DNA of 64,000 bases from Candidatus Thorarchaeota archaeon (lineage in GTDB: Archaea; Asgardarchaeota; Thorarchaeia; Thorarchaeales; Thorarchaeaceae): contig JAOUFI010000003.1 in the NCBI GenBank assembly GCA_029858305.1, forward strand, positions 1-64,000, written 5' to 3'. This document shows positions 1 to 57,019 of the stretch, piece after piece (the first letter of the stretch is position 1; each line of letters opens with the position of its first letter). A program made the translations under genes and the position numbers. A model generated the notes under the pieces. That model did not search any database, had not been told where the DNA came from, and saw nothing but the letters and a program-made list of their open reading frames with translations.

Positions 1-378
1 GAAGAATCCTAGCTCTGCATTGAACTGACCCCACCAAAATTGGATACTGTGGAGACGAGACATTTCCATCATGATGGTTCTCATGATTTTAGCACGCTCT
101 GGTACCTCGAGTTCAGCTATTTTCTCAACTGCAGCGACATAGGGATATTCAGCTAAAAACGCCTCGAGCATGCACATCCGTTCAAGTACAAGTGCTCCCT
201 GCCTGAAGTTCTTGTATTCTAGAACCTTCTCAGCAGAACGATGGAAGTACCCAGCATTCGGATCACATTCAACTACATAGTCACCAACCAGCGTCAGTTT
301 TGTTGCCCATCCATGTGCGCTGACATGCTGTGGTCCGAACCAGATTTCCATTGCTTCATCAAGTATGTCAGGACTCAC
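1..378 (-). CDS. nuoD: NADH:quinone oxidoreductase-like subunit D (NuoD/49 kDa), 5' part only, runs off window start
   Basis: Reverse strand read by eye: GTG start at 378 overlapping the nuoC stop (GTGA); VSPDILDEAMEIWFGPQHVSAHGWATKL...VGDYVVECDPNAGYFHRSAEKVLEYKNFRQG...YVAAVEKIAELEVPERAKIMRTIMMEMSRLHS matches NuoD motifs. Not in the supplied ORF track. Confidence 0.88.
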   Translation of the reverse strand, partial: MSPDILDEAMEIWFGPQHVSAHGWATKLTLVGDYVVECDPNAGYFHRSAEKVLEYKNFRQGALVLERMCMLEAFLAEYPYVAAVEKIAELEVPERAKIMRTIMMEMSRLHSIQFWWGQFNAELGFF

Positions 379-902
379 TCGCTTTCGCCTCCTGTCTTTG
401 GTCTCGCTTTTGGTGGAGTGATACCTGCTTCATCCAGCCTGCTTTGGTCAGTCTGGAATCTTTTGCGGAGAGGAAACACACCTGCAAGCTCATCTGGGAG
501 AAGCAATAATCGAGGGTCGGGATGATTCTTGAAGTCGATTCCAAACATCTCACGAGTTTCTCGTTCATGCCATTCAAAACCTGGAAAGATGTCACAAGTA
601 CTATCAATCTCAGGTCGCTCTCCTTCCAGAGAAACTCTCAACTGCAGTAACATTCGATTGGAGTGAGACCAAAAGATGTAGATTAGTTCGTATTTGTCAT
701 TTTCAAGATCGATACCAAAGATTGACTCGGGCAAAGCGTCATGAACATTCTCATCAATCATGGTCACGATATCACGAATTATGTTGGAAGGCACTGCAAG
801 CTCGATCTCATTCGCTCCCAAAGGTCTTGATGCAACCTCAGGATGCTTATTGATGATCTGTCTTGCGAGAGTTGAAGCTGTGATGCTGGTTGTTTCTGAC
901 AA
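375..902 (-). CDS. nuoC: NADH:quinone oxidoreductase-like subunit C (30 kDa)
   Basis: FEWHERETREMFGIDFKNHPDPRLLLLPDE motif; probable TTG start at 902 just after the nuoK stop (the ORF track extends to 950). Confidence 0.88.
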   Translation of the reverse strand: MSETTSITASTLARQIINKHPEVASRPLGANEIELAVPSNIIRDIVTMIDENVHDALPESIFGIDLENDKYELIYIFWSHSNRMLLQLRVSLEGERPEIDSTCDIFPGFEWHERETREMFGIDFKNHPDPRLLLLPDELAGVFPLRKRFQTDQSRLDEAGITPPKARPKTGGESE

Positions 903-903
903 T

Positions 904-1215
904 TTATTGACCCTCCATCTCCACTGATGTACCGAGGTCAACTGAGCCATATCGGCGGTTGTACATCAACATCAGGACCATTGCTAGAGCAGTATGTGCT
1001 GCAGCAACAGAGATTACAAGGATGATAAGTCCCTGACCAGTGAATGAAAACGCGGGATTAAACAGAGCAATAGCAACAATTGCAATCATGACTCCATTAC
1101 CCATTATTTCAGCTCCAATCAGGATTCTGATGAGGTTTCTTTTCACCATCATCCCATATCCACCTAAACCAATTAGCATGAACGCTAGTACTAGATACCA
1201 AGAAAGAGGAACCAT
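904..1215 (-). CDS. nuoK: NADH:quinone oxidoreductase-like subunit K
   Basis: 103 aa, 3 TM, GLGGYGMMVKRNLIRILIGAEIMGNGVMI...AAAHTALAMVLMLMYNRRYGSVD. Confidence 0.9.
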   Translation of the reverse strand: MVPLSWYLVLAFMLIGLGGYGMMVKRNLIRILIGAEIMGNGVMIAIVAIALFNPAFSFTGQGLIILVISVAAAHTALAMVLMLMYNRRYGSVDLGTSVEMEGQ

Positions 1216-1862
1216 TATTCATCAACCTCCTTCGGTTCAGGGACAGACTGCCCATCTTCAGCGCTTTGCAAGTCATCAATTAATACTGGTTTAGCTTCTA
1301 CTCCGAACTCTCCTGTGATGGCACCGAGCTGCTCGGCTTTGTCCATTCTCAACAGCGATATAGCACCAACTAATGATGTAATCATAATCAATGCAATCAT
1401 CTGCACATAGATGCCATTCTCAAACCATAGCCACTGTGCAAGACCATTCAAATCTTGAGAGATACTGACAAAGGCCTCATTGAAGGATTCTGCCCAAGGA
1501 AAGAGAACTGCAAGAAATCCGGTCATCACGGTTACTACGACAGCAATAACAAGGCTGATCTGACGAGCTCTGGGTGTGGCGAACTTTTCAAGAGTTGAGT
1601 CTTGTGCTCTTGGTAGTAGTAGAACTGCAAAGATAATCAGAGTACTGATGCCTCCAGTATACACTGCGATTTGCATACCTGCAATGAAAGGTGCTTCAAG
1701 AAGGAGAAAGAATCCTGCCACAAATGATGCCATAAAACCAAAGAAAAATGCGGCGTAAACAATCTCCTTGTGCTCTAGAGCAAGATATGCGAGCACTAGC
1801 ACAATGCCTGCCAAGAGTAGGAACTCTATCTGTTCAAAGAGTGCTGGATCAAATCCTTGCAT
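1215..1862 (-). CDS. nuoJ: NADH:quinone oxidoreductase-like subunit J
   Basis: 5-TM layout; FVAGFFLLLEAPFIAGMQIAVYTGGISTLIIFAVLLL typical of NuoJ. Confidence 0.88.
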   Translation of the reverse strand: MQGFDPALFEQIEFLLLAGIVLVLAYLALEHKEIVYAAFFFGFMASFVAGFFLLLEAPFIAGMQIAVYTGGISTLIIFAVLLLPRAQDSTLEKFATPRARQISLVIAVVVTVMTGFLAVLFPWAESFNEAFVSISQDLNGLAQWLWFENGIYVQMIALIMITSLVGAISLLRMDKAEQLGAITGEFGVEAKPVLIDDLQSAEDGQSVPEPKEVDE

Positions 1863-1864
1863 GA

Positions 1865-2332
1865 TTAATGACCTCCTGTAGGATATTGTTCTTTTTCTCG
1901 TTCAGCTTTAGCTCTCCTGTATACATCTAGAGTTTCTTTTCCATCAAGGAATGAGCGTGGAATCATTTTCATGACAAAACCAACTCCACCCATTACTATG
2001 AGAATAAACACAACAACCTGCCAAACAACCTCATACTTGGTTGCATTAGCCCACAAAAGGGTAGAAGAGGATAGCAGCCAAAGGAACGCTCCCATTACGT
2101 CAATGACGACAAACAGTACGGTGTAAACGAAATAATTGTACGGATACGATATGCGTGCAGGACCTACTGGTTCCTCACCACATTCGTATGTTGAAGTCTT
2201 CTCGGAGTTTTGAAGCACATGCGGTCTCAACACCCATGAGGCTAGTAGCATTATAATGACAAGAGCCATCGCAAGTAGCGCCCAAATTATAACCGGAATG
2301 AAATCTAGAAACAATCTACTAGTTTGCATCAT
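1865..2332 (-). CDS. nuoA: NADH:quinone oxidoreductase-like subunit A
   Basis: TYECGEEPVGPARISYPYNYFVYTVLFVVIDVMGAFLW is the NuoA signature region. Confidence 0.9.
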   Translation of the reverse strand: MMQTSRLFLDFIPVIIWALLAMALVIIMLLASWVLRPHVLQNSEKTSTYECGEEPVGPARISYPYNYFVYTVLFVVIDVMGAFLWLLSSSTLLWANATKYEVVWQVVVFILIVMGGVGFVMKMIPRSFLDGKETLDVYRRAKAEREKEQYPTGGH

Positions 2333-2630
2333 AGTTTGAAACCATCCTCTGAAAAGATTCCTATTGTTCTAACGCTTGCGCAGGACCTTACACGGTGATT
2401 ATTGAAGATACCTGTGGAATAGGCCATATCGAGTAGATTCCTGTTTTCAGTCATAGGATTCATCCTGCGCTAGCTGTGTCTCCGTCATTCCAGACCGTAT
2501 CCGCCAGATGATAAATCTTCATGATTCTTAACTTAGCATCATCACAGATTTTGGCCTACAATGTACATTGAAACTTACCGGCTTAGAAAAGTTGCATGAT
2601 AAAAACACTTCGGGAAACCGCTCAAAGAAG

Positions 2631-2638
2631 TTATATAC
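2631..2638 (+). promoter_or_regulatory. TATA-box-like element upstream of the 2685 ORF
   Basis: TTATATAC ~50 nt upstream of the GTG start, purine-rich (BRE-like) sequence before it. Confidence 0.4.
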
Positions 2639-2684
2639 TACAAGGTTTCGAAGAACAACTCGATACATGTATCCACGATTGTAG

Positions 2685-3050
2685 GTGATTTATTTGACCC
2701 GTGGTGAAGAAGGAACATTCTTCTATTATCTGGCGCTCTTACTAGGGATGGCTCTATTAGGAGCCTACTTATGGAATATTTTGACAACGACATTGGCTCC
2801 TCAATACATGTTCTTCCACTGGATCCTTGTCATGAGTTGCATACTACTCATCACAACTGCTTTTGGATTCGTTGCAGCCAACACACGATCAAGTAGGATA
2901 TCTCTAACAATGATATCTGGAGTAGTAGGTGGTATTCATGCCTATCTCATCTTTGTGCTATTTGATTTGATAATGGGAATTATTCTGTTCGCATGGATGG
3001 CTTTAGGACTTCTGGTTGCATTCGCTGCATTTAACTGGATTTACGAATAA
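2685..3050 (+). CDS. Small 4-TM membrane protein, unknown function
   Basis: 121 aa hydrophobic ORF, GTG start, inserted in opposite orientation among nuo genes. Confidence 0.7.
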   Translation: MIYLTRGEEGTFFYYLALLLGMALLGAYLWNILTTTLAPQYMFFHWILVMSCILLITTAFGFVAANTRSSRISLTMISGVVGGIHAYLIFVLFDLIMGIILFAWMALGLLVAFAAFNWIYE

Positions 3051-3060
3051 GTCATTACGT

Positions 3061-3603
3061 CTATTCGTTCGAAGACTCAGATGGAGTATCAGCGGATTCA
3101 CTGGACTCCTCAGATTTTACCTCGGCTTCAGGCGCAGCTTCCACAATTGGCTCAGGCTCGGGCTCAGGCTCAGGACCATAGTGTAGCTTACTAGTATCCA
3201 AGATACCGGGTGAGTAGCTCTCTTCACTAGTATGCATTATTGCAAAGCCTGCAGCAGTAAGGATTGATCCTCCAAGACCCCATGCAGATAGATAGAGTGT
3301 GGTTCCAGCTGCTGGAAGAGCTGTCACAAACTGGTCAATGAAGACGACGAAGAAAAAGCCAGCCAGAACAGATAGGGACATCATTAGGTTTTTTCCTTTT
3401 CCTTTCTCGGGTCTGAAGTACCCAATCAATAGGAAGACCATAAGAATGGAAACGCCACCCAGAAGAGTGAAGGCACTTCCAATTACAATTGCTGAAGCTG
3501 GCATCATGAACCCGAGATATACAAAGTTGAAGATGAATGATGTCAGAATAATGAGACCGAGCCAAAGCAGACAATATGGATCACTATCTTGCCGGATTGC
3601 CAT
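3061..3603 (-). CDS. 4-TM membrane protein with acidic EP-repeat C-terminal tail, unknown function
   Basis: 180 aa; start overlaps the stop of the upstream fusion gene (TAATG), suggesting translational coupling; tail EPEPEPEPIVEAAPEAEV. Confidence 0.75.
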   Translation of the reverse strand: MAIRQDSDPYCLLWLGLIILTSFIFNFVYLGFMMPASAIVIGSAFTLLGGVSILMVFLLIGYFRPEKGKGKNLMMSLSVLAGFFFVVFIDQFVTALPAAGTTLYLSAWGLGGSILTAAGFAIMHTSEESYSPGILDTSKLHYGPEPEPEPEPIVEAAPEAEVKSEESSESADTPSESSNE

Positions 3604-5543
3604 TACTGCATCATCCCCATCGCATCTTGATTCTCATATCTTTGTTGCCAGTGAGTCGTCCCAGCTCGTATCTTGTTCTGCAAAATCAGGTGTGCTCGGA
3701 TAAAGTCCGCGGGTTTGGGAGGACATCCGGGGAGATAGACATCGACTGGTACAATTTTGTCAGGAGGTGTTGCCAAGCTGTATCCTTCCCAGAAGAGCCC
3801 CCCGGAGGCAACACATTGACCGAAGGCAATGACATACTTGGGCTCTGGCATCTGTTCATAGATTCTCCTGAGTCGTGGTGCCATCTTCTTTGTGAGAGAG
3901 CCTGAGATCCATAGGACATCAGTCTGTCTTGGGCCAAACAGAGGTAGCATTCCGAACCTCTCAAAGTCCCATCGAGGGGCGATTCCTGCGGCACCATCCA
4001 CCATGCAGCATCCTATTCCATACTGCATTGGCCAAGGACTATGTGCCCTTCCCCATCTAAGCACCCATTTCAGCGGGGGTACATTCTGCAGCCATTTCAA
4101 GAGGATTGGCGCAATTCGGCCCCAACCATTCCTGAATAGGTCGAAGAAGACCCACATGAAGTACTTGCCGATTCTTAATATGAAAGGAAGCCAGTAAGCA
4201 AATATCTTTCCAGGATTCGAAATCTCCTTCTTATCCCATTCTAGCTTCGCAGCTCGAATTCGAGATAAACGCTGCTTTCCAAAGTACTGATTTGCGTAGT
4301 TTGCAAACCAGATTCCTGTTGAGTGCACATGGCCCCCGTGACGTTGTGCAATTTTGAATATGACAAAGCTCTGTGACCAGGAGAGCATGAAGAAGTGCCG
4401 TCGCTCATCCTCCAGAAAGTATCCCATCATCGTCACGCCAGTCTTCGAGTTAACATAGCCATCAATTCCAGCTCTTGCAGAGGCTTGTTCAAATTGAAAG
4501 TCGTCAAGGATTGCGGCAAGGTTCTCTAGAGGTGCAAATGCCTGACCGACAACTAGTGTTGGACCTTTCTTTTTGATCTTCATGGGATAGTATCGCTCAT
4601 GCCATTCATGATCTGCAACTTCATCATCGTAAACGCGTCCACGATACATCTCAGTGACTTCGCGTACGACTCTCAGTCCCTCTTCAATCTCTTCCTCATT
4701 ACCTTCATATGCAACCATCAATGAACAATGGTGAGCAGGAATCGGGAATGGCTTCTTGCCCTCCCAGATAGCCTTCTTGAGGTCTGTGTATTTTGATTCT
4801 TCGAATTTTATCGTGTAGGGAATTGGTCCATCTTCAAGGATCTTCTCAATCGCAAGGACCATCTGATAATTCTCTTCAAAGCTGGAAACTATGACTTTCA
4901 TCGGCGTTAGAGTTTTGATCTTAATAGTAGCCTTAGTGATTATACCCAAAATTCCCTCAGTATCGCAAAAGAGGTCGAGATCTTTCGTCTTGACTATTTT
5001 TCCAGTTGGCAAAACAACTTCTAATTTAACGACGTTCTTATTGATGTTCCCGTATTTCAAAGAACCAATGCCATCGCCACCTTGGGCAATCCAACCACCC
5101 ACAGTTGCCGATACACCAGATGAGGGATAACATCGTACATCAAGACCTTGCCTATTCAACTCGAATTGAAGATTAGCCCATGATATCCCGGGCTCAACTG
5201 TGACAGTCAAATTCTCACTATCAACTTCGAGTATCTTATTCATACTGCGCAAATCAACGATGATTCCACCCTTGCGCGGAATGGCACCACCATAACCAGA
5301 TGTCCCAGCTGCTCGGGGAACAAGAGGAATCTTGTACTTGCGCGCAATTTCGTAGAGTGTCTGTATCTCCTCAGGAGTCAGAGGCTGTGCTATGGCATCA
5401 GCCTTCGTGTTCATGAGCCAACCAACCTGCTTTGGGAGAGAACCAACATCTTGTCCAAACAAAATCAGTTCATGCTTCGCAGTAATCAGGCGGTCTCCAA
5501 AAACCTTCTCGAGTTCATTTTGTGCTATTTGCTTAAGGACCAT
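3603..5543 (-). CDS. FAD-linked oxidase (GlcD/lactate dehydrogenase type) fused to complex I subunit NuoB
   Basis: N-terminal FAD_binding_4-like region (PLVPRAAGTSGYGGAIPRKGGIIVDLRSMNKI...YPSSGVSATVGGWIAQGGDGIGS) and C-terminal NuoB (YGIGCCMVDGAAGIAPRWDFERFG...RQTDVLWISGSLTKKMAPRLRRIYEQMPEPKYVIAFGQCVASGG...VPVDVYLPGCPPKPADF) in one 646-aa ORF. Confidence 0.9.
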   Translation of the reverse strand: MVLKQIAQNELEKVFGDRLITAKHELILFGQDVGSLPKQVGWLMNTKADAIAQPLTPEEIQTLYEIARKYKIPLVPRAAGTSGYGGAIPRKGGIIVDLRSMNKILEVDSENLTVTVEPGISWANLQFELNRQGLDVRCYPSSGVSATVGGWIAQGGDGIGSLKYGNINKNVVKLEVVLPTGKIVKTKDLDLFCDTEGILGIITKATIKIKTLTPMKVIVSSFEENYQMVLAIEKILEDGPIPYTIKFEESKYTDLKKAIWEGKKPFPIPAHHCSLMVAYEGNEEEIEEGLRVVREVTEMYRGRVYDDEVADHEWHERYYPMKIKKKGPTLVVGQAFAPLENLAAILDDFQFEQASARAGIDGYVNSKTGVTMMGYFLEDERRHFFMLSWSQSFVIFKIAQRHGGHVHSTGIWFANYANQYFGKQRLSRIRAAKLEWDKKEISNPGKIFAYWLPFILRIGKYFMWVFFDLFRNGWGRIAPILLKWLQNVPPLKWVLRWGRAHSPWPMQYGIGCCMVDGAAGIAPRWDFERFGMLPLFGPRQTDVLWISGSLTKKMAPRLRRIYEQMPEPKYVIAFGQCVASGGLFWEGYSLATPPDKIVPVDVYLPGCPPKPADFIRAHLILQNKIRAGTTHWQQRYENQDAMGMMQ

Positions 5544-21473: not shown

Positions 21474-22847
21474 CTATCGACGTCTGCCAACCAATACTCC
21501 TAGGAGCAAGCCAACAAGAATACCACCAGCGGCTCCACCAACAATAATCAGAGTGTCTGCGCTAAATCCAGCAGGTGCTGGTAGATTCTCATAGTAGTAT
21601 GCCTTAGCATCTAGGAGATCTCTAAACGCAGAATTGATCGCATCAAATGTCTCCATTGGATCGTGGAAACCAGATGAACCATCATAGCCGTAATAGCCAA
21701 CAGTGGTTGAAGCAGCGTCAATCTCATCTTGCACATAGTTGGCAAGAGTGATATTTGCGCCAGCTGTCGCATTGTAAGCTGCTACTGCTGTTTCGAGGGC
21801 TGATGCTTCAGCTTCGAAATCTGCTACGAGGGCATCGTATGATGACATAATCTCTTCTAGTTGGTTGATAGCCCACGCTTCTTGTCCTTCATGGCACTCA
21901 GGTGCCTGACCACAGGCGTCTTCTGGGAGAACAGCAAAGGTATGGTTCATTTCAGGTCCATGTGAACCTTGTACAAAACCATGACAATCTGTACACTCAA
22001 CAATGCCGGTCAAGTCATGTGCGCCACCCGTCCATACATTGATGGTCGTGTGACGGGCTGAATTACCGTGGCAGAGACCACAGAGTTCTGTGGAATTCTC
22101 AGCCCATATCTGAGCTGGGTTCACTACCTGTGCGTCATGGATAGCGTGACATGCGGGACAAGTGATAGCGTTGTAGTTGCCTTCGGGATCAAGGTCATCG
22201 TCTTCACCGAAGAAGCCGTTGTAACCGAGGAATCCCTCAGCTGACATGCAGTGCATACAGTCTGATCCTGCATGGCTACTTGTTCTTAGATCTGTAAGTG
22301 AGTTGGCATGAGCCGATTCGGTGTAACCTTCGAGGCCACCGTGCCCTTCATGGATGTGACAAGAGGCACAAACACTACCATTTACTGAGTAGTATGGTGT
22401 GGATGTGTCATGACATGTCAGACAGTTGGTTCCAAATCCATCATGTGTATATGGATAGTCCGTGGCGTTACGCTCCGGAGTCCAACCAATTGCATGACAC
22501 TGAGCACATGTCGCGTTCCAAGCCAAATAGGTTCGTTCGCGAGCACCATTGACCGTGACGTTGCCTGATGTTTCATTATAGTATATTAGGTAACCTGAGT
22601 GGGTGGTCATATTCCAATATTCCCATGTCTGGTTATGACATTCACCTGTCAGGCATGAAACACCATTTTCTTGGTCAGGGGTTGCGAGTTCATGCGCCTC
22701 ACGTACTCTGTCAACGGATAATGTGACAGGTATTCCAGATCCCGTTGGTCCTAGGAGAATGGCGAAACCGATTAGGCAGAGGAACAGGTAATAACCCGCT
22801 ACCATCCGCTTATTGACCCCAGGGGTCTCTTCAGTGTAGTACACCAT
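21474..22847 (-). CDS. Membrane-anchored multiheme c-type cytochrome
   Basis: Six CXXCH (CAQCH, CLTCH, CASCH, CPACH, CGLCH, CTDCH), plus CLTGECH (CX4CH), CGQAPECH (CX5CH) and CMHCM; TM at both ends. Confidence 0.88.
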   Translation of the reverse strand: MVYYTEETPGVNKRMVAGYYLFLCLIGFAILLGPTGSGIPVTLSVDRVREAHELATPDQENGVSCLTGECHNQTWEYWNMTTHSGYLIYYNETSGNVTVNGARERTYLAWNATCAQCHAIGWTPERNATDYPYTHDGFGTNCLTCHDTSTPYYSVNGSVCASCHIHEGHGGLEGYTESAHANSLTDLRTSSHAGSDCMHCMSAEGFLGYNGFFGEDDDLDPEGNYNAITCPACHAIHDAQVVNPAQIWAENSTELCGLCHGNSARHTTINVWTGGAHDLTGIVECTDCHGFVQGSHGPEMNHTFAVLPEDACGQAPECHEGQEAWAINQLEEIMSSYDALVADFEAEASALETAVAAYNATAGANITLANYVQDEIDAASTTVGYYGYDGSSGFHDPMETFDAINSAFRDLLDAKAYYYENLPAPAGFSADTLIIVGGAAGGILVGLLLGVLVGRRR

Positions 22848-44939: not shown

Positions 44940-45539
44940 ATGAGCTGCTTAGAATGGTTTGGTCATTGGAGGATTGAAAACGTGAGTCCTATAGAGATTC
45001 TTAGTGTGTTAGGCGCCTCTTTTCTCCTCTTCCGAATCTGGCTTGTTGAAATGAAGTTGCCTGATGAACTCCAATTTAGACGTAGATACTTCAGTCGTTT
45101 TTTCTCATATTATACAGGTTTCGCTCTCGTTTTTGGGCTTAGTTTCTATCCGTTTAATGTGATGGTAATGATCGCCTTCCCAATTATACTTGTGACATCT
45201 ATTTGGGACATCAACTTCTACCGCAGGTTCAAGACTCAGACATATTGGACCAAAAACCGTGCTTGGGTGTTAATTGAAAGACTCACTTTACACCCTCCTG
45301 TAGTCATAGTAGCTTTATTCATGATTTTTAATGATGCAAGAAATTACATCCAGCCCCCCAATCTCCTCATGATGATAGTAAGTGCTCTTATCCTCTTTCT
45401 TCCATTCTTCCTACTTGATGCACGGTGGACACGACGTTACAAATGGCCTGAGGCTGTAATTGTAATTGGACTAATGGTCGCATCTGGTGCATCGTTACTA
45501 CTTGCAGAAGCAATTCTTTGGGGTGTTCCATTTTGGTAG
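44940..45539 (+). CDS. Multi-TM membrane protein, unknown function
   Basis: 199 aa, ~6 TM; overlaps the next gene. Confidence 0.6.
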   Translation: MSCLEWFGHWRIENVSPIEILSVLGASFLLFRIWLVEMKLPDELQFRRRYFSRFFSYYTGFALVFGLSFYPFNVMVMIAFPIILVTSIWDINFYRRFKTQTYWTKNRAWVLIERLTLHPPVVIVALFMIFNDARNYIQPPNLLMMIVSALILFLPFFLLDARWTRRYKWPEAVIVIGLMVASGASLLLAEAILWGVPFW

Positions 45540-46819
45540 CTGAAAGCCAAAAGACATCTGATTCATTCTTGGAATACTTCAAGAAATCTCGGCTACTCAA
45601 AATTGGCCTTGCTTTCAATCTCATTTACTTTGTTGGTGCAATTTTTGGTTTGATTTACTTTTTCTTTGAGGGAACAGTTCTTGAAACTGTCTATACTGTA
45701 GACTTTCGTGTTTTCTATGAGGCTGGCCAAGTATTCATAAGCTCTCCAAGCGAAATCTACTCCGTTAATCCAAATGGATTGCCATTCAGATACTTCCCCT
45801 CATTTGCCGCATATATGGCTATATTCACAGGTATTCCATTACTAACACTCTACTTGATCAACATCACGCTGATGATGATTTGTAATCTGGGCATAGTCTA
45901 TTTTGTATATCAAGTGAGCCAACAAAAGGGAGTATCCACTTCCACAAAGAATTTTGAAAGAACACTTCTCTTTGTTTTCATTGCACCTCAGCACATTGTC
46001 AATATCATGTTTGGACAAATCACACAGCTGGCTATACTTCTAGCATTGATCGTGCTGTTTCTATTGCAGTCTTCAAATCATGACTCGCTGGGGTGGTTTT
46101 TTGTTACAGGTATACTAATCGGACTAGCAGCAACCCTCAAACCTTTCTTTCTAGTATTCATTCCTTTTATGGTTCCAATAACTGCAATGGACAGGGTACG
46201 TTTCAGTGTAGCTTTTAGACAATTAGTTGGAGTAGCTCTTGGATTCATGCTAGTAATGCTTCCAAATATTGTGTATTTCTTCACATACCCTTCCGCATTG
46301 GATGGTTTCATCAGAGTGAATCTTTTTGAAGATCTAACTGGTCAACACAGCACAAGCATTACCAAACTAGTAATAGCCTTTGTACCATTCTCTGACACGA
46401 ATCTATTACAAATTATTATTATTCTAATTTTAGGTGGGTTCCTATTCTTCAGAAGTTATGTCCGGTTTGTCAAGACTCCTCCCAATCAGAAAGATTATCT
46501 AAGACACTTTGTAGAGATGACATTTCTCATTCTTCTTGTCTATCCCGATTCATGGTTTCTCTTTCTTGCTATTTGGTATGCATTCTTGGCGCCATCAATG
46601 CTTCATCTATATAATTCTGATTCAGTTTCAGAAATGAATTTGCGGAAACTAGATTATCTATGGTCAGGTGCAAACAATTTACTAGCTTTCTTTTCTATTG
46701 GGATTATTCTACATTACCTAATACTCGGATTTGACCCAATTATCCCAATATGGCTGACAATCCTATTCATTCTATATGACCGTATCTCACAATTAGATAC
46801 TATTTCTACAACTTCATAA
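45518..46819 (+). CDS. GT87/DUF2029-like polytopic glycosyltransferase family protein
   Basis: DFRVFYEAGQVFISSPSEIYSVNPNGLPFRYFPSFAAYMAIF, polytopic. Confidence 0.65.
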   Translation: MGCSILVAESQKTSDSFLEYFKKSRLLKIGLAFNLIYFVGAIFGLIYFFFEGTVLETVYTVDFRVFYEAGQVFISSPSEIYSVNPNGLPFRYFPSFAAYMAIFTGIPLLTLYLINITLMMICNLGIVYFVYQVSQQKGVSTSTKNFERTLLFVFIAPQHIVNIMFGQITQLAILLALIVLFLLQSSNHDSLGWFFVTGILIGLAATLKPFFLVFIPFMVPITAMDRVRFSVAFRQLVGVALGFMLVMLPNIVYFFTYPSALDGFIRVNLFEDLTGQHSTSITKLVIAFVPFSDTNLLQIIIILILGGFLFFRSYVRFVKTPPNQKDYLRHFVEMTFLILLVYPDSWFLFLAIWYAFLAPSMLHLYNSDSVSEMNLRKLDYLWSGANNLLAFFSIGIILHYLILGFDPIIPIWLTILFILYDRISQLDTISTTS

Positions 46820-46871
46820 TTGGCATACCGTATGATTCTTATCAAAGAATAGCGGATAATCTACGATTGTT

Positions 46872-47693
46872 ATGACCGAAGACATAAGCTTGGAGAACTC
46901 GTCTGGCTCACCGATTTCTTTTTCATATTTGAAAAAATTCAATATCTATGCCGGTGTTCTTCATCTAATAACTGGAATACTCATGCTATTCTTGGGTTTA
47001 AATTTGGAGTGGGAGCAGGATGTTTATGCCTTCTATCTCGATTTTCAAATACTTCCTGTTGATCCATTCTTCGTAGTGCAACCGACACCTGTTGTCATAT
47101 TCACACTTTCATACATCGGAGTGATTCTGGCATCATTCCCGTTAATGTCAGCTCTAGCTCATTTCTTAATCGCGTTTCCACTGAAAGACAAGTATGTGGC
47201 AAATCTCCAGAAAGGTATGAACCCATACAGATGGTATGAGTATGCAGTATCAAGCTCAGTGATGATTTTCCTGATCACATTCCTCTTGGGAATTTGGGAT
47301 ATATGGTCACTTGTGATGATTGTTGTTCTGAATGCTATGATGATTATGTTCGGATATCTAATGGAGTATGTTAATCAGTATACAGAGAAAACTACCTGGA
47401 AACCTTTCATATTAGGATGCATTTCTGGTGGAACACCTTGGGTTGTCTTATTCGGATATTTCGCGGCCGCAATTAGTGCTGCAGAAACCAATCCTCCAAC
47501 CTTTGTGTACATTATCATATTCATGTACCTAATCCTCTTCAACATCTTTGCACTGAATCAATTCCTGCAATACAAACGAGTCAGTAAATGGAAAGACTAT
47601 CTCTATGGAGAACGAATGTACATTATTCTAAGCTTGATTGCGAAAACTCTACTTGCATGGATTGTTTTTGCTGGAATATTTGCACCATTCTAA
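46872..47693 (+). CDS. Heliorhodopsin
   Basis: 273 aa, 7 TM; YAGVLHLITG (TM1 His), ALAHFLIAFP (TM2 His), NPYRWYEYAVSSSVMI (TM3 Glu), NQFLQYKRVSKWKDYLYGERMYIILSLIAKTLLAWIVFAG with retinal-type Lys258 in TM7. Confidence 0.92.
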   Translation: MTEDISLENSSGSPISFSYLKKFNIYAGVLHLITGILMLFLGLNLEWEQDVYAFYLDFQILPVDPFFVVQPTPVVIFTLSYIGVILASFPLMSALAHFLIAFPLKDKYVANLQKGMNPYRWYEYAVSSSVMIFLITFLLGIWDIWSLVMIVVLNAMMIMFGYLMEYVNQYTEKTTWKPFILGCISGGTPWVVLFGYFAAAISAAETNPPTFVYIIIFMYLILFNIFALNQFLQYKRVSKWKDYLYGERMYIILSLIAKTLLAWIVFAGIFAPF

Positions 47694-47948: not shown

Positions 47949-49004
47949 ATGATGAAGTACGCTATTCTTAACAAAGCGCTTCTTGGAATGGTACTACTAT
48001 TGCTGGTATCATCCATAGTGGTTGTCAGTGCAACAACAACAACTGAGGATGAAACCACAGAGACTGAAACCACGACAGAAGACGAAACTACAACCTCTAT
48101 CAACGATGATGATTCCAATGACCGTGAAGTGACCGTCATGACGACATCTACACATGCTGAAATTGAATCAAAGCTTGAATCAGGAGGTACTGAAGACTCC
48201 TTCAAGATCGAAGTCGATGTTGGTGTTAACGGCGTTGAGTTCAAAATCGCATTTGAAGCTGAAACGGCAACAAATGAAACCGAAAGAGAGTTTGAGGTCG
48301 ATTTCAGCCAGCTAGTTGAGTTCATTGATGAGAACAGCAATGGTGTCTATGATGATTCAGTAGATACTGATGTTCAGACACTAGAGCTGAATAGTTTTGA
48401 ACCAATCGCATACACGACTGAGAACATTTCAGGGATCACCGTACATGTGTTTGATGTTTCAACTACCGATGGCATCTTTGGTGCAAGGATTTATGCGACT
48501 GGAGATTTCACCAATATCAACGGCAGTCTCATTGCTCCTACTCAGGTGAAGATTGATGTGTTCATTCACGACTTCAATTTCACAGACGTGGATTCACAGC
48601 TCGCCTTGAAGGTGGAACTCAGTAGTGAGTTGGAAACCTCTTTCAATGACCAGACCGAGGATGAAGAGGATGGGAGAGCCACCGATGAAGCAGCAGTTGA
48701 CATTCTCATGACAGACACCAATGGTTTCTTCTCTTGGAAGGAATCTGCTGAAATCGATGGAATCGCCCATCAGGTCAACTCTAGCATTCATGAAGTCTCA
48801 GCAACAGAACAAGAAATCTATCTGAACTACCCACAGGGTAGCGAGATAGTTCATGATCCTAAGATTGGTTTTGAGAATCTCCTTATCATGGGGGGGAATC
48901 CCTTGCCAATTGCGGACTTCATTGCTGACAACTTGCTTCCTATCTCCATTGGCCTTGCTATTGTCGTTATTGGATTAGTTGTAGTGGCTAAGCGAAGGTC
49001 GTAG
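47949..49004 (+). CDS. Secreted acidic surface protein with C-terminal TM anchor
   Basis: Signal peptide, TTTTEDETTETETTTEDETTTS linker, Ca-binding-like loop DENSNGVYDD, C-terminal TM and KRRS. Confidence 0.7.
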   Translation: MMKYAILNKALLGMVLLLLVSSIVVVSATTTTEDETTETETTTEDETTTSINDDDSNDREVTVMTTSTHAEIESKLESGGTEDSFKIEVDVGVNGVEFKIAFEAETATNETEREFEVDFSQLVEFIDENSNGVYDDSVDTDVQTLELNSFEPIAYTTENISGITVHVFDVSTTDGIFGARIYATGDFTNINGSLIAPTQVKIDVFIHDFNFTDVDSQLALKVELSSELETSFNDQTEDEEDGRATDEAAVDILMTDTNGFFSWKESAEIDGIAHQVNSSIHEVSATEQEIYLNYPQGSEIVHDPKIGFENLLIMGGNPLPIADFIADNLLPISIGLAIVVIGLVVVAKRRS

Positions 49005-54593: not shown

Positions 54594-55379
54594 TTGAATT
54601 TGGTAGCTGTCAGTGTTGAGAGACTTGTAAAATCGTTTGGAAGTCTGGTAGCAGTAAATAATGTCACGTTCGAAGTACGCGAGGGTGAAATCTATGGATT
54701 ACTTGGACCTAATGGGGCAGGCAAAACGACGACAATAAAGTGCCTAATGGGACTCTTGGATCCTGATAGTGGTTCAACCCATATTTACCATGTGAATTCT
54801 CTAGAGAATCCAATTGAGGCCAAGAAACTTGTAGGCTATGTGCCCGAAGAGCACCAGCTCTATGACTCACTGACTCCGCGTGAACTGTTCGAATTCATTG
54901 CTTCAATTAGACAACTTCCTAAAGATAAAACTAACAAACGCATTGGAGAGATGGTGAAAGCACTCGATTTCGAGAAGTATTATGATTCAATGATTGTGAC
55001 ACTCTCGCAGGGGAACAAACAGAAGACAATGCTAATCTCTGCTTTACTTCATGCGCCAAAGCTCCTTATTCTTGACGAACCATTCTCGGGACTTGATGTA
55101 AGGACATCTAAGATAATCAAAGACATCATCCAGATTCATGTGGACAATGGAGGCTCCGTTCTTCTGTCTACGCATGTCATGGAAGTCGCTCAGGGACTTT
55201 GTGATCGAGTAGGGATTATTGACGATGGCGTATTGGTAGGTGAGGGAACACTATCTGAACTCAGAGCTCAGGCAAAAGAAGAGAGTGCTACTCTTGAGAA
55301 ATTATTCCTCCGCCTTACAGAGCAGGAAGAGGAGGTCCAGGTCGGTGTCGATGCTCTTCGGGAGGCACTCTCAGAATGA
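54594..55379 (+). CDS. ABC transporter ATP-binding protein
   Basis: LLGPNGAGKTTTIKCLMG, LSQGNKQKTMLISALLHAPKLLILDEPFSGLD; TTG start. Confidence 0.9.
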   Translation: MNLVAVSVERLVKSFGSLVAVNNVTFEVREGEIYGLLGPNGAGKTTTIKCLMGLLDPDSGSTHIYHVNSLENPIEAKKLVGYVPEEHQLYDSLTPRELFEFIASIRQLPKDKTNKRIGEMVKALDFEKYYDSMIVTLSQGNKQKTMLISALLHAPKLLILDEPFSGLDVRTSKIIKDIIQIHVDNGGSVLLSTHVMEVAQGLCDRVGIIDDGVLVGEGTLSELRAQAKEESATLEKLFLRLTEQEEEVQVGVDALREALSE

Positions 55380-57019
55380 ACTTCAGAGAGCGCTGGAGAT
55401 TAGCAGGCATCATTGCACTACAGATGAGATTCGATGGGTTTCTCAAGAACAATCCTGGAAATATGGCTCGGATAAAGGAAAATCCTGAGAAAATCTCGAG
55501 AAGTATTCGATCTTCAAGCAGGGTGAACAGCATTCTGAGTGTCTTCATGATTATCATGTTGGCAGCACTCACTATTGGTGTCACTGGTTTCGATGCCTCA
55601 ATTGGAGACCTCAATGTCCGACTTGCTGTAGGATTTTCATTCTTCATGGTTCTTGCCTTTGTCTTAATTTTCCTCCTAAATCTCACAACTACAACTGGAT
55701 TCTTTACATCCGGGGCTATGAAATTGCCAAGTATTTTACCTCTTAGTAGAAAGGAACTTGAGAGCCTTGCAGTACTTGCATTTACACGCGTCTTCATTGC
55801 TCCAGCTATCCTCACCGTTACATTGTTCCCAGCGGCGTGTTTTGTTCTATTTGGGCCATTAGCAGGTTTTGTTGCGCTTATTGGATGTCTTGCCACGGTC
55901 TCAGTATCTCTACGTTCGTTGATTGGGTTCTCACGATGGTTCGAAACCAAGATGCTCTCATCAGATGAGTCGAAGATTGGGACTATAGTGAGGATAGCAG
56001 CCACTATAGGGCTTGTTGTTGGAATCATGAGTGTCTATATGCTGTCCAGCTACATCCCGTATATTGTTCAAGGAGTTATCATGTTCGCAGAATCTTTCAA
56101 TGGAACATACTTGGTGCTCTCAGTCCTTTTTCCATTCTCATTTGGTTTCTTAGCCTCAGCTGTGACGCCAGGAGTAACTTTTCAAGATTTGATGATTCCT
56201 TTGGTTTCAGGGGGTATGTCCCTCCTATATGGTTTGATTGCATTAGTATTCTATAGACAAAGCGGAAAATTGCTAAGGGGTCTTGCTATTGGAGGAGTTT
56301 CAACAGGAAGAACTGGGCCACTGAGAGAAATTAGCATCGAAACGCGAACGCCCATAATAGCAGTAATTCGAAAAGATTTGAAGATGGCTACAAAGAGTGT
56401 TGGATCAGCAATCGTCTATGCAATTCCAATCTTTCTGATGATCATGTTGTATCCAATGATAAGAGGGATGTCACAAGACGGGCCGCTCCACAGCATCACT
56501 GCAATGACTGCGATAGCATATGCTAATCTCTTTGGGGGACTAACCGTGGTCTCAGTGATGATGTTTGATACACAAGGGGCGTCTATTCATGAGGGATTGC
56601 CCCTGAGTTCAAGACTAGTCCTTAAAGGAAAAACTGCAATCTCTATCATTCCATACACCATGACAATGCTGTTTATCGCCCTCTTGCTCTCTTTGTTTAA
56701 TCCAATTACACCACTTGTCATCCTTATACCAATTTTAGCTATACCACTCGGATATGCAGTACCGATGTCTGTCGGAGCAGCCATGTATCGCTACAAGGGA
56801 GGTGGTCGTGCTGTAGCTATCAATCTAGCTGCTGACCAAAAAATGGCGTTGATCGCAGGATTTGTAGGAGCAGTTGTAGGACTTGGGCCTCTTCTCGGAT
56901 TTGGGATTGTCATGATAATGACAGGTTCACAGATTTTCAGTTTAGCAACTCAAGCACTTGTCACATTTGGCATCGTTTTAATGGCACATTTCCAGATTCC
57001 AAAGCTCCTCAAGGATTGA
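55376..57019 (+). CDS. ABC transporter permease
   Basis: 547 aa polytopic, overlaps the ATPase stop (ATGA). Confidence 0.75.
   Translation: MNFRERWRLAGIIALQMRFDGFLKNNPGNMARIKENPEKISRSIRSSSRVNSILSVFMIIMLAALTIGVTGFDASIGDLNVRLAVGFSFFMVLAFVLIFLLNLTTTTGFFTSGAMKLPSILPLSRKELESLAVLAFTRVFIAPAILTVTLFPAACFVLFGPLAGFVALIGCLATVSVSLRSLIGFSRWFETKMLSSDESKIGTIVRIAATIGLVVGIMSVYMLSSYIPYIVQGVIMFAESFNGTYLVLSVLFPFSFGFLASAVTPGVTFQDLMIPLVSGGMSLLYGLIALVFYRQSGKLLRGLAIGGVSTGRTGPLREISIETRTPIIAVIRKDLKMATKSVGSAIVYAIPIFLMIMLYPMIRGMSQDGPLHSITAMTAIAYANLFGGLTVVSVMMFDTQGASIHEGLPLSSRLVLKGKTAISIIPYTMTMLFIALLLSLFNPITPLVILIPILAIPLGYAVPMSVGAAMYRYKGGGRAVAINLAADQKMALIAGFVGAVVGLGPLLGFGIVMIMTGSQIFSLATQALVTFGIVLMAHFQIPKLLKD

Follow-up and report, generated by a model that had tools for sequence, protein, structure and literature searches.

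An intact heliorhodopsin gene at shifting genomic locations in Thorarchaeia, with known retinal-forming enzymes undetected

The window, a stretch of 64,000 nucleotides from contig JAOUFI010000003.1 of a Candidatus Thorarchaeota archaeon, contains a gene for a genuine, intact heliorhodopsin (HeR; type-3 rhodopsin). The open reading frame is complete and has no internal stop (Table 1). The protein is an ordinary, well-conserved HeR in an unusual setting, with one clade-specific change in its signalling network. Nothing found in the host points to retinal synthesis of its own, and the location of the gene shifts among relatives. The protein is probably a functional, horizontally mobile, stand-alone light sensor rather than a pump, and would use scavenged retinal.

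Table 1. The heliorhodopsin gene and the features around it in the window
Feature	Coordinates	Strand	Remarks
199-aa membrane protein (44940)	44940..45539	+	overlaps start of 45518
Polytopic membrane protein, 433 aa (45518)	45518..46819	+	same strand as HeR, 52-nt gap between the two
15 nt directly upstream of HeR start	46857..46871	+	ends CGATTGTT-ATG; conserved, probable own start/initiation signal
Heliorhodopsin (HeR) gene	46872..47693	+	273 aa; ATG at 46872, stop codon 47691-47693
Predicted secreted/anchored acidic protein, 351 aa (47949)	47949..49004	+	not found next to other Thorarchaeial HeRs

The identification agrees with the earlier note, which had called the gene a heliorhodopsin of an archaeal genome. 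The Pfam model PF18761 (E 4.8e-90; 301.6 bits against a cut-off of 26.7) and the NCBIfam HeR equivalog NF038020 (E 3e-101; 338 bits against a cut-off of 100) both match the protein over near full length, and PF01036 (type-1 microbial rhodopsin/schizorhodopsin) gives no match at E values up to 1. With phmmer, nearly the entire protein aligns with TaHeR, the heliorhodopsin of Thermoplasmatales archaeon SG8-52-1 (PDB 6is6, 7u55; E 1e-55 with 6is6), and with 48C12 (PDB 6su3, 6uh3; E 7e-46). In the AlphaFold2 model (pLDDT 84), seven long helices are accompanied by a beta hairpin within extracellular loop 1. In Foldseek the model superposes on 6is6 with TMq 0.82, TMt 0.89 and an rmsd of 2.0, and on 7u55 with TMt 0.91. 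The best ten PDB matches are all heliorhodopsins at E 1.5e-13 or better, and other microbial rhodopsins follow at E 4e-3 or worse. A chance match is excluded as the source of the identification. The closest relatives of the protein are from Thorarchaeota MAGs (70-87% identity), followed by Bathyarchaeia and methanogens. HeRs of Asgard archaea and Thorarchaeota have already been published, in a passage of PMC6646929 that cites Pushkarev 2018 and in PMC7110647, and the window HeR adds to these. Its dN to the closest HeRs of the same clade is about 0.10 (~0.09-0.11) and dS is mostly saturated, which indicates purifying selection.

The residues named as hallmarks in the earlier note all align with their equivalents in the solved HeRs. 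The TM7 Schiff-base Lys (TaHeR K238, 48C12 K241) has its counterpart in Lys258 (codon 47643-47645), and the protein thereby survives the sequence part of the refutation set out in the earlier note. Glu123 in the TM3 segment WYEYAVSSS aligns with the counterion Glu107 of 48C12, and His31 (TM1) and His97 (TM2) with His23 and His80 of 48C12. The SxxxK and ESL motifs defined for heliorhodopsins (PMC9601134) are present as S254xxxK258 and E123/S127/L134. The hydrogen-bond network of 48C12 (PMC9726877) was mapped on 86 non-identical HeRs, a sample biased to close relatives, in which the Schiff-base Lys occurs in 82/82 and the counterion Glu in 85/85. The window protein keeps 14 network residues (N16, H23, S76, H80, Y92, R104, E107, Y108, S111, E149, E230, S237, K241, and W246 in 48C12 numbering), that is, all except Gln26, at an overall identity to 48C12 of ~40%. 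The cytoplasmic Asn-Tyr-Glu-Arg-Glu network is present as N24, Y108, E247, R120, and E165. With TaHeR the protein has in common the family, the fold (TM-score 0.82-0.91), the Schiff-base Lys, the Glu counterion, both His residues, and a long extracellular loop 1. It differs from TaHeR in overall sequence (~42% identity), in Thr34 for Gln26, and in Ile264 for the Gln that follows the TM7 Trp.

The second of these replacements had drawn attention before. The TM7 segment LLAWIVFAG reads as the earlier note gave it, but its Ile264 is a poor candidate for the retinal-pocket change proposed there. At this position, Lys+6 (48C12 Q247), Leu or Ile is the commonest state, found in 67 of 82 sampled HeRs (Leu 51, Ile 16, Gln 14, Phe 1), and Gln occurs mainly in HeRs of Thermoplasmata and Actinobacteria. 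By helix geometry alone, the Ile264 side chain should point away from the retinal. By sequence counts, the rarer change is Thr34 for Gln26 in TM1. Gln occupies this position in 68/83 of all sampled HeRs, and the distinct Thorarchaeial sequences have Thr (10/11) or Met (1/11). The HeRs of Bathyarchaeia and methanogens (among loci L010-L047) are the nearest non-Thorarchaeial relatives at ~58-71% identity and, unlike the window HeR, mostly keep Gln26. In 48C12, Gln26 connects His23 with Trp246 on the extracellular side and is hydrogen-bonded to Trp246 (PMC9726877). The window HeR keeps this Trp as Trp263 and lacks the Gln, so the Gln26-Trp246 arm cannot be built as in 48C12. This bond belongs to the mechanism of 48C12 but varies within the family, and membership without it is possible. 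The HeR closest to the window protein (G031/L092, L002) is interrupted by an in-frame TAA in TM1, and the conserved Ser of its SxxxK motif is replaced by Ile. It is perhaps a decaying copy in a lineage that is losing the gene, or an assembly error.

The three neighbours named in the earlier note (44940, 45518, and 47949) exist as open reading frames. For 45518, described there as GT87-like, Pfam and NCBIfam give no match to a GT87 model and no curated family match. The neighbours do not make up a conserved HeR context. Comparison of gene neighbourhoods places HeR at different sites in sister genomes, only the HeR locus L006 (= G015) has a neighbour in common with the window (45518), and the acidic protein is beside no other Thorarchaeial HeR examined. 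The 45518 and 44940 genes form a conserved pair that is independent of HeR: no HeR adjoins it in G001, G002, G014, or G012, the first three of which carry HeR and 45518 on different contigs, while G012 has no HeR. In the G015 locus (L006:1580-4039, minus strand), an 819-aa flavoprotein with amine-oxidase/desaturase-like and Fer4_20 domains is convergent with HeR.

A light-controlled envelope-glycosylation or transport unit, made up of HeR, 45518, and 44940 with the upstream genes as operon partners, is an improbable alternative to the stand-alone sensor. The shared strand, the 52-nt gap, and the repeated adjacency of HeR and 45518 in G015/L006 speak for it, as does co-occurrence when phylogeny is ignored (45518 in 6/10 genomes with HeR against 4/27 without, p 0.012). 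The phylogeny-aware test comprises only 3 independent pairs, with a median p of 0.5. Against it, HeR and 45518 lie on separate contigs in G001, G002, and G014, and although both genes are found together in 6 of the 37 family genomes, each occurs alone in 4 (HeR in G016, G025, G031, and G036; 45518 in G012, G026, G028, and G034). A conserved operon of HeR with the 45518/44940 pair is rejected as a general feature.

Operon partners described for HeR groups are glutamine synthetase, photolyase, and ABC transporter (PMC9529153, PMC9769723, PMC11109279). None of these is directly beside HeR in the window, where an ABC pair (54594-57019) is 7 kb away. Photolyase is rejected as a partner, as FAD_binding_7 photolyase was found in none of the 37 family genomes. 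Several Bathyarchaeial and methanogen HeRs adjoin SOUL heme-binding, pyridoxamine-oxidase-like, UvdE-like, or DUF1722 genes, none of which is present within the window. A SOUL heme-binding gene (PF04832) lies at most three genes from HeR in 10 Bathyarchaeial/methanogen loci (L013, L017, L018, L020, L028, L033, L035, L038, L043, and L044), and a text search for a SOUL-heliorhodopsin link in the literature gave no relevant paper.

Other parts of the window contain redox genes. A GlcD-type FAD oxidase (PF01565, PF02913) and a NuoB-like complex I subunit (PF01058) are fused in a 646-aa chain at 3603-5543 (minus strand), which adjoins complex I-like genes at 375-3603. The region 10458-35655 comprises a run of Fe-S (CxxCxxCxxxC) and FAD-oxidase-like genes, with a 6-CxxCH protein at 21474-22847 (minus strand), and suggests a redox island.

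The mean pairwise identity of the Thorarchaeial HeR loci is 0.588 at positions -15 to 0, against 0.26-0.30 beyond 45 nt upstream, and none of 2000 shuffles reaches this value (0/2000). Because these 15 nt are conserved even where the flanking genes are unrelated, HeR probably brings a start signal of its own. The gene is patchy, being present in 10/37 family genomes, and is at a differing location in nearly every related genome. The same-genus genome G001 has the local order MFS, 44940 homologue (p199), 45518 homologue, ABC pair, RPE, and Tal, with MutS slightly further along the same contig. This kept gene order indicates that the window contig is not a binning artefact. In G001, the interval from the 45518 homologue to the ABC pair spans ~0.64 kb against 7.8 kb in the window. 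HeR, the acidic protein, the nucleotidyltransferase, and UvrA are missing from this interval, and the HeR of G001 is on another contig.

The Thorarchaeial HeRs form one clade (100/98) nested among those of Bathyarchaeia and methanogens (99*; 99/98). A single clade inside Bathyarchaeial HeRs suggests one transfer into Thorarchaeia. MutS was the marker for the genome tree; RpoB was not found in G000. The HeR tree conflicts with MutS: a single clade for the HeRs of the window's genus is rejected (AU p 5.7e-5), and the window HeR is sister to the HeR of a genus-g7 genome at 86% identity, whereas its MutS is 68% identical to that of another g7 genome and 72-80% identical within the genus. HeR presence requires 6 changes on the MutS tree of 21 genomes. 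Simple vertical descent explains this history less well than horizontal movement or loss of paralogues, and misbinned contigs could contribute to the conflict. A viral origin was considered and rejected, the IMG/VR scan having given two distant HeRs only (42-44% identity).

The predicted cytoplasmic loops contain 3, 1, and 5 Lys+Arg residues (total 9), and the extracellular loops and C-terminus contain none. By the positive-inside rule alone, this points to an inverted topology with a cytoplasmic N-terminus, which fits the HeR orientation. In the proposed mechanism, the N-terminus would lie in the cytoplasm and retinal would be bound to Lys258 within the seven helices. Light would isomerise the retinal, and the Schiff-base proton would move to Glu123 and on to the His97/His31 region. 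The change would then travel along Asn24-Tyr108-Glu247-Arg120-Glu165, network residues whose mechanism is described for 48C12 (PMC9726877), and reach chiefly the cytoplasmic face. The extracellular relay may be weakened, Gln26 being Thr34. The protein would use exogenous retinal, would be expressed from its own start signal, and would serve sensing rather than transport, with a downstream partner probably encoded elsewhere than next door. A stronger form of this proposal, that the Thorarchaeial HeRs have lost the extracellular arm, kept the cytoplasmic arm, and signal inward only, from a gene that spreads as a stand-alone cassette among retinal-dependent hosts, is tentative and rather unlikely. 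A light-driven proton transporter like the viral V2HeR3 is an unlikely alternative to the sensor. The family offers the precedent, as V2HeR3 transports protons (PMC9448325), and TM3 and the vicinity of TM6/7 hold carboxylates; but V2HeR3 is viral, and the residue pattern here follows 48C12 and TaHeR, which showed no proton release (PMC9726877).

The supply of retinal for such a sensor was followed through a check for synthesis genes, which the earlier note had proposed. Searches covered MAGs of 74-99% completeness (own genome 89%). Neither the host genome nor any HeR-bearing genome of the family has a match over the cut-off to BCD/Blh, CarR-type lycopene cyclase, or RPE65. The cyclase, searched with working controls, is lacking in all 59 relatives, and RPE65 occurs among them only outside the Thorarchaeial family. 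For BCD/Blh, no genome among the 59 relatives is over the cut-off, and this absence is provisional because the model also matched no control genome; a positive control attempted in 17 HeR-bearing genomes gave no match anywhere. Phytoene/squalene synthase does not track HeR (4/10 genomes with HeR against 6/27 without, Fisher p 0.41). The host of TaHeR has likewise been reported without a retinal-making route, and uptake of outside retinal via the fenestration was proposed (PMC9385722). An opsin expressed without retinal, serving a membrane partner as scaffold or regulator independently of light, would accord with the undetected retinal-forming enzymes of the HeR-bearing Thorarchaeia and is the least probable alternative, as the strictly conserved Schiff-base Lys, counterion, and protonation network would not be needed without retinal.

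Heliorhodopsin function is unsettled, and the proposed partners derive from neighbouring genes, mostly bacterial. The Thorarchaeial HeRs are a counter-case, a conserved protein without a conserved neighbour, a photolyase, or detected retinal synthesis. If the host is unable to make retinal, they would provide a test of light sensing with a scavenged chromophore in archaea related to eukaryotes. For probing the proposed Gln26-Trp246 relay, nature supplies a ready variant in the Gln26-to-Thr change.
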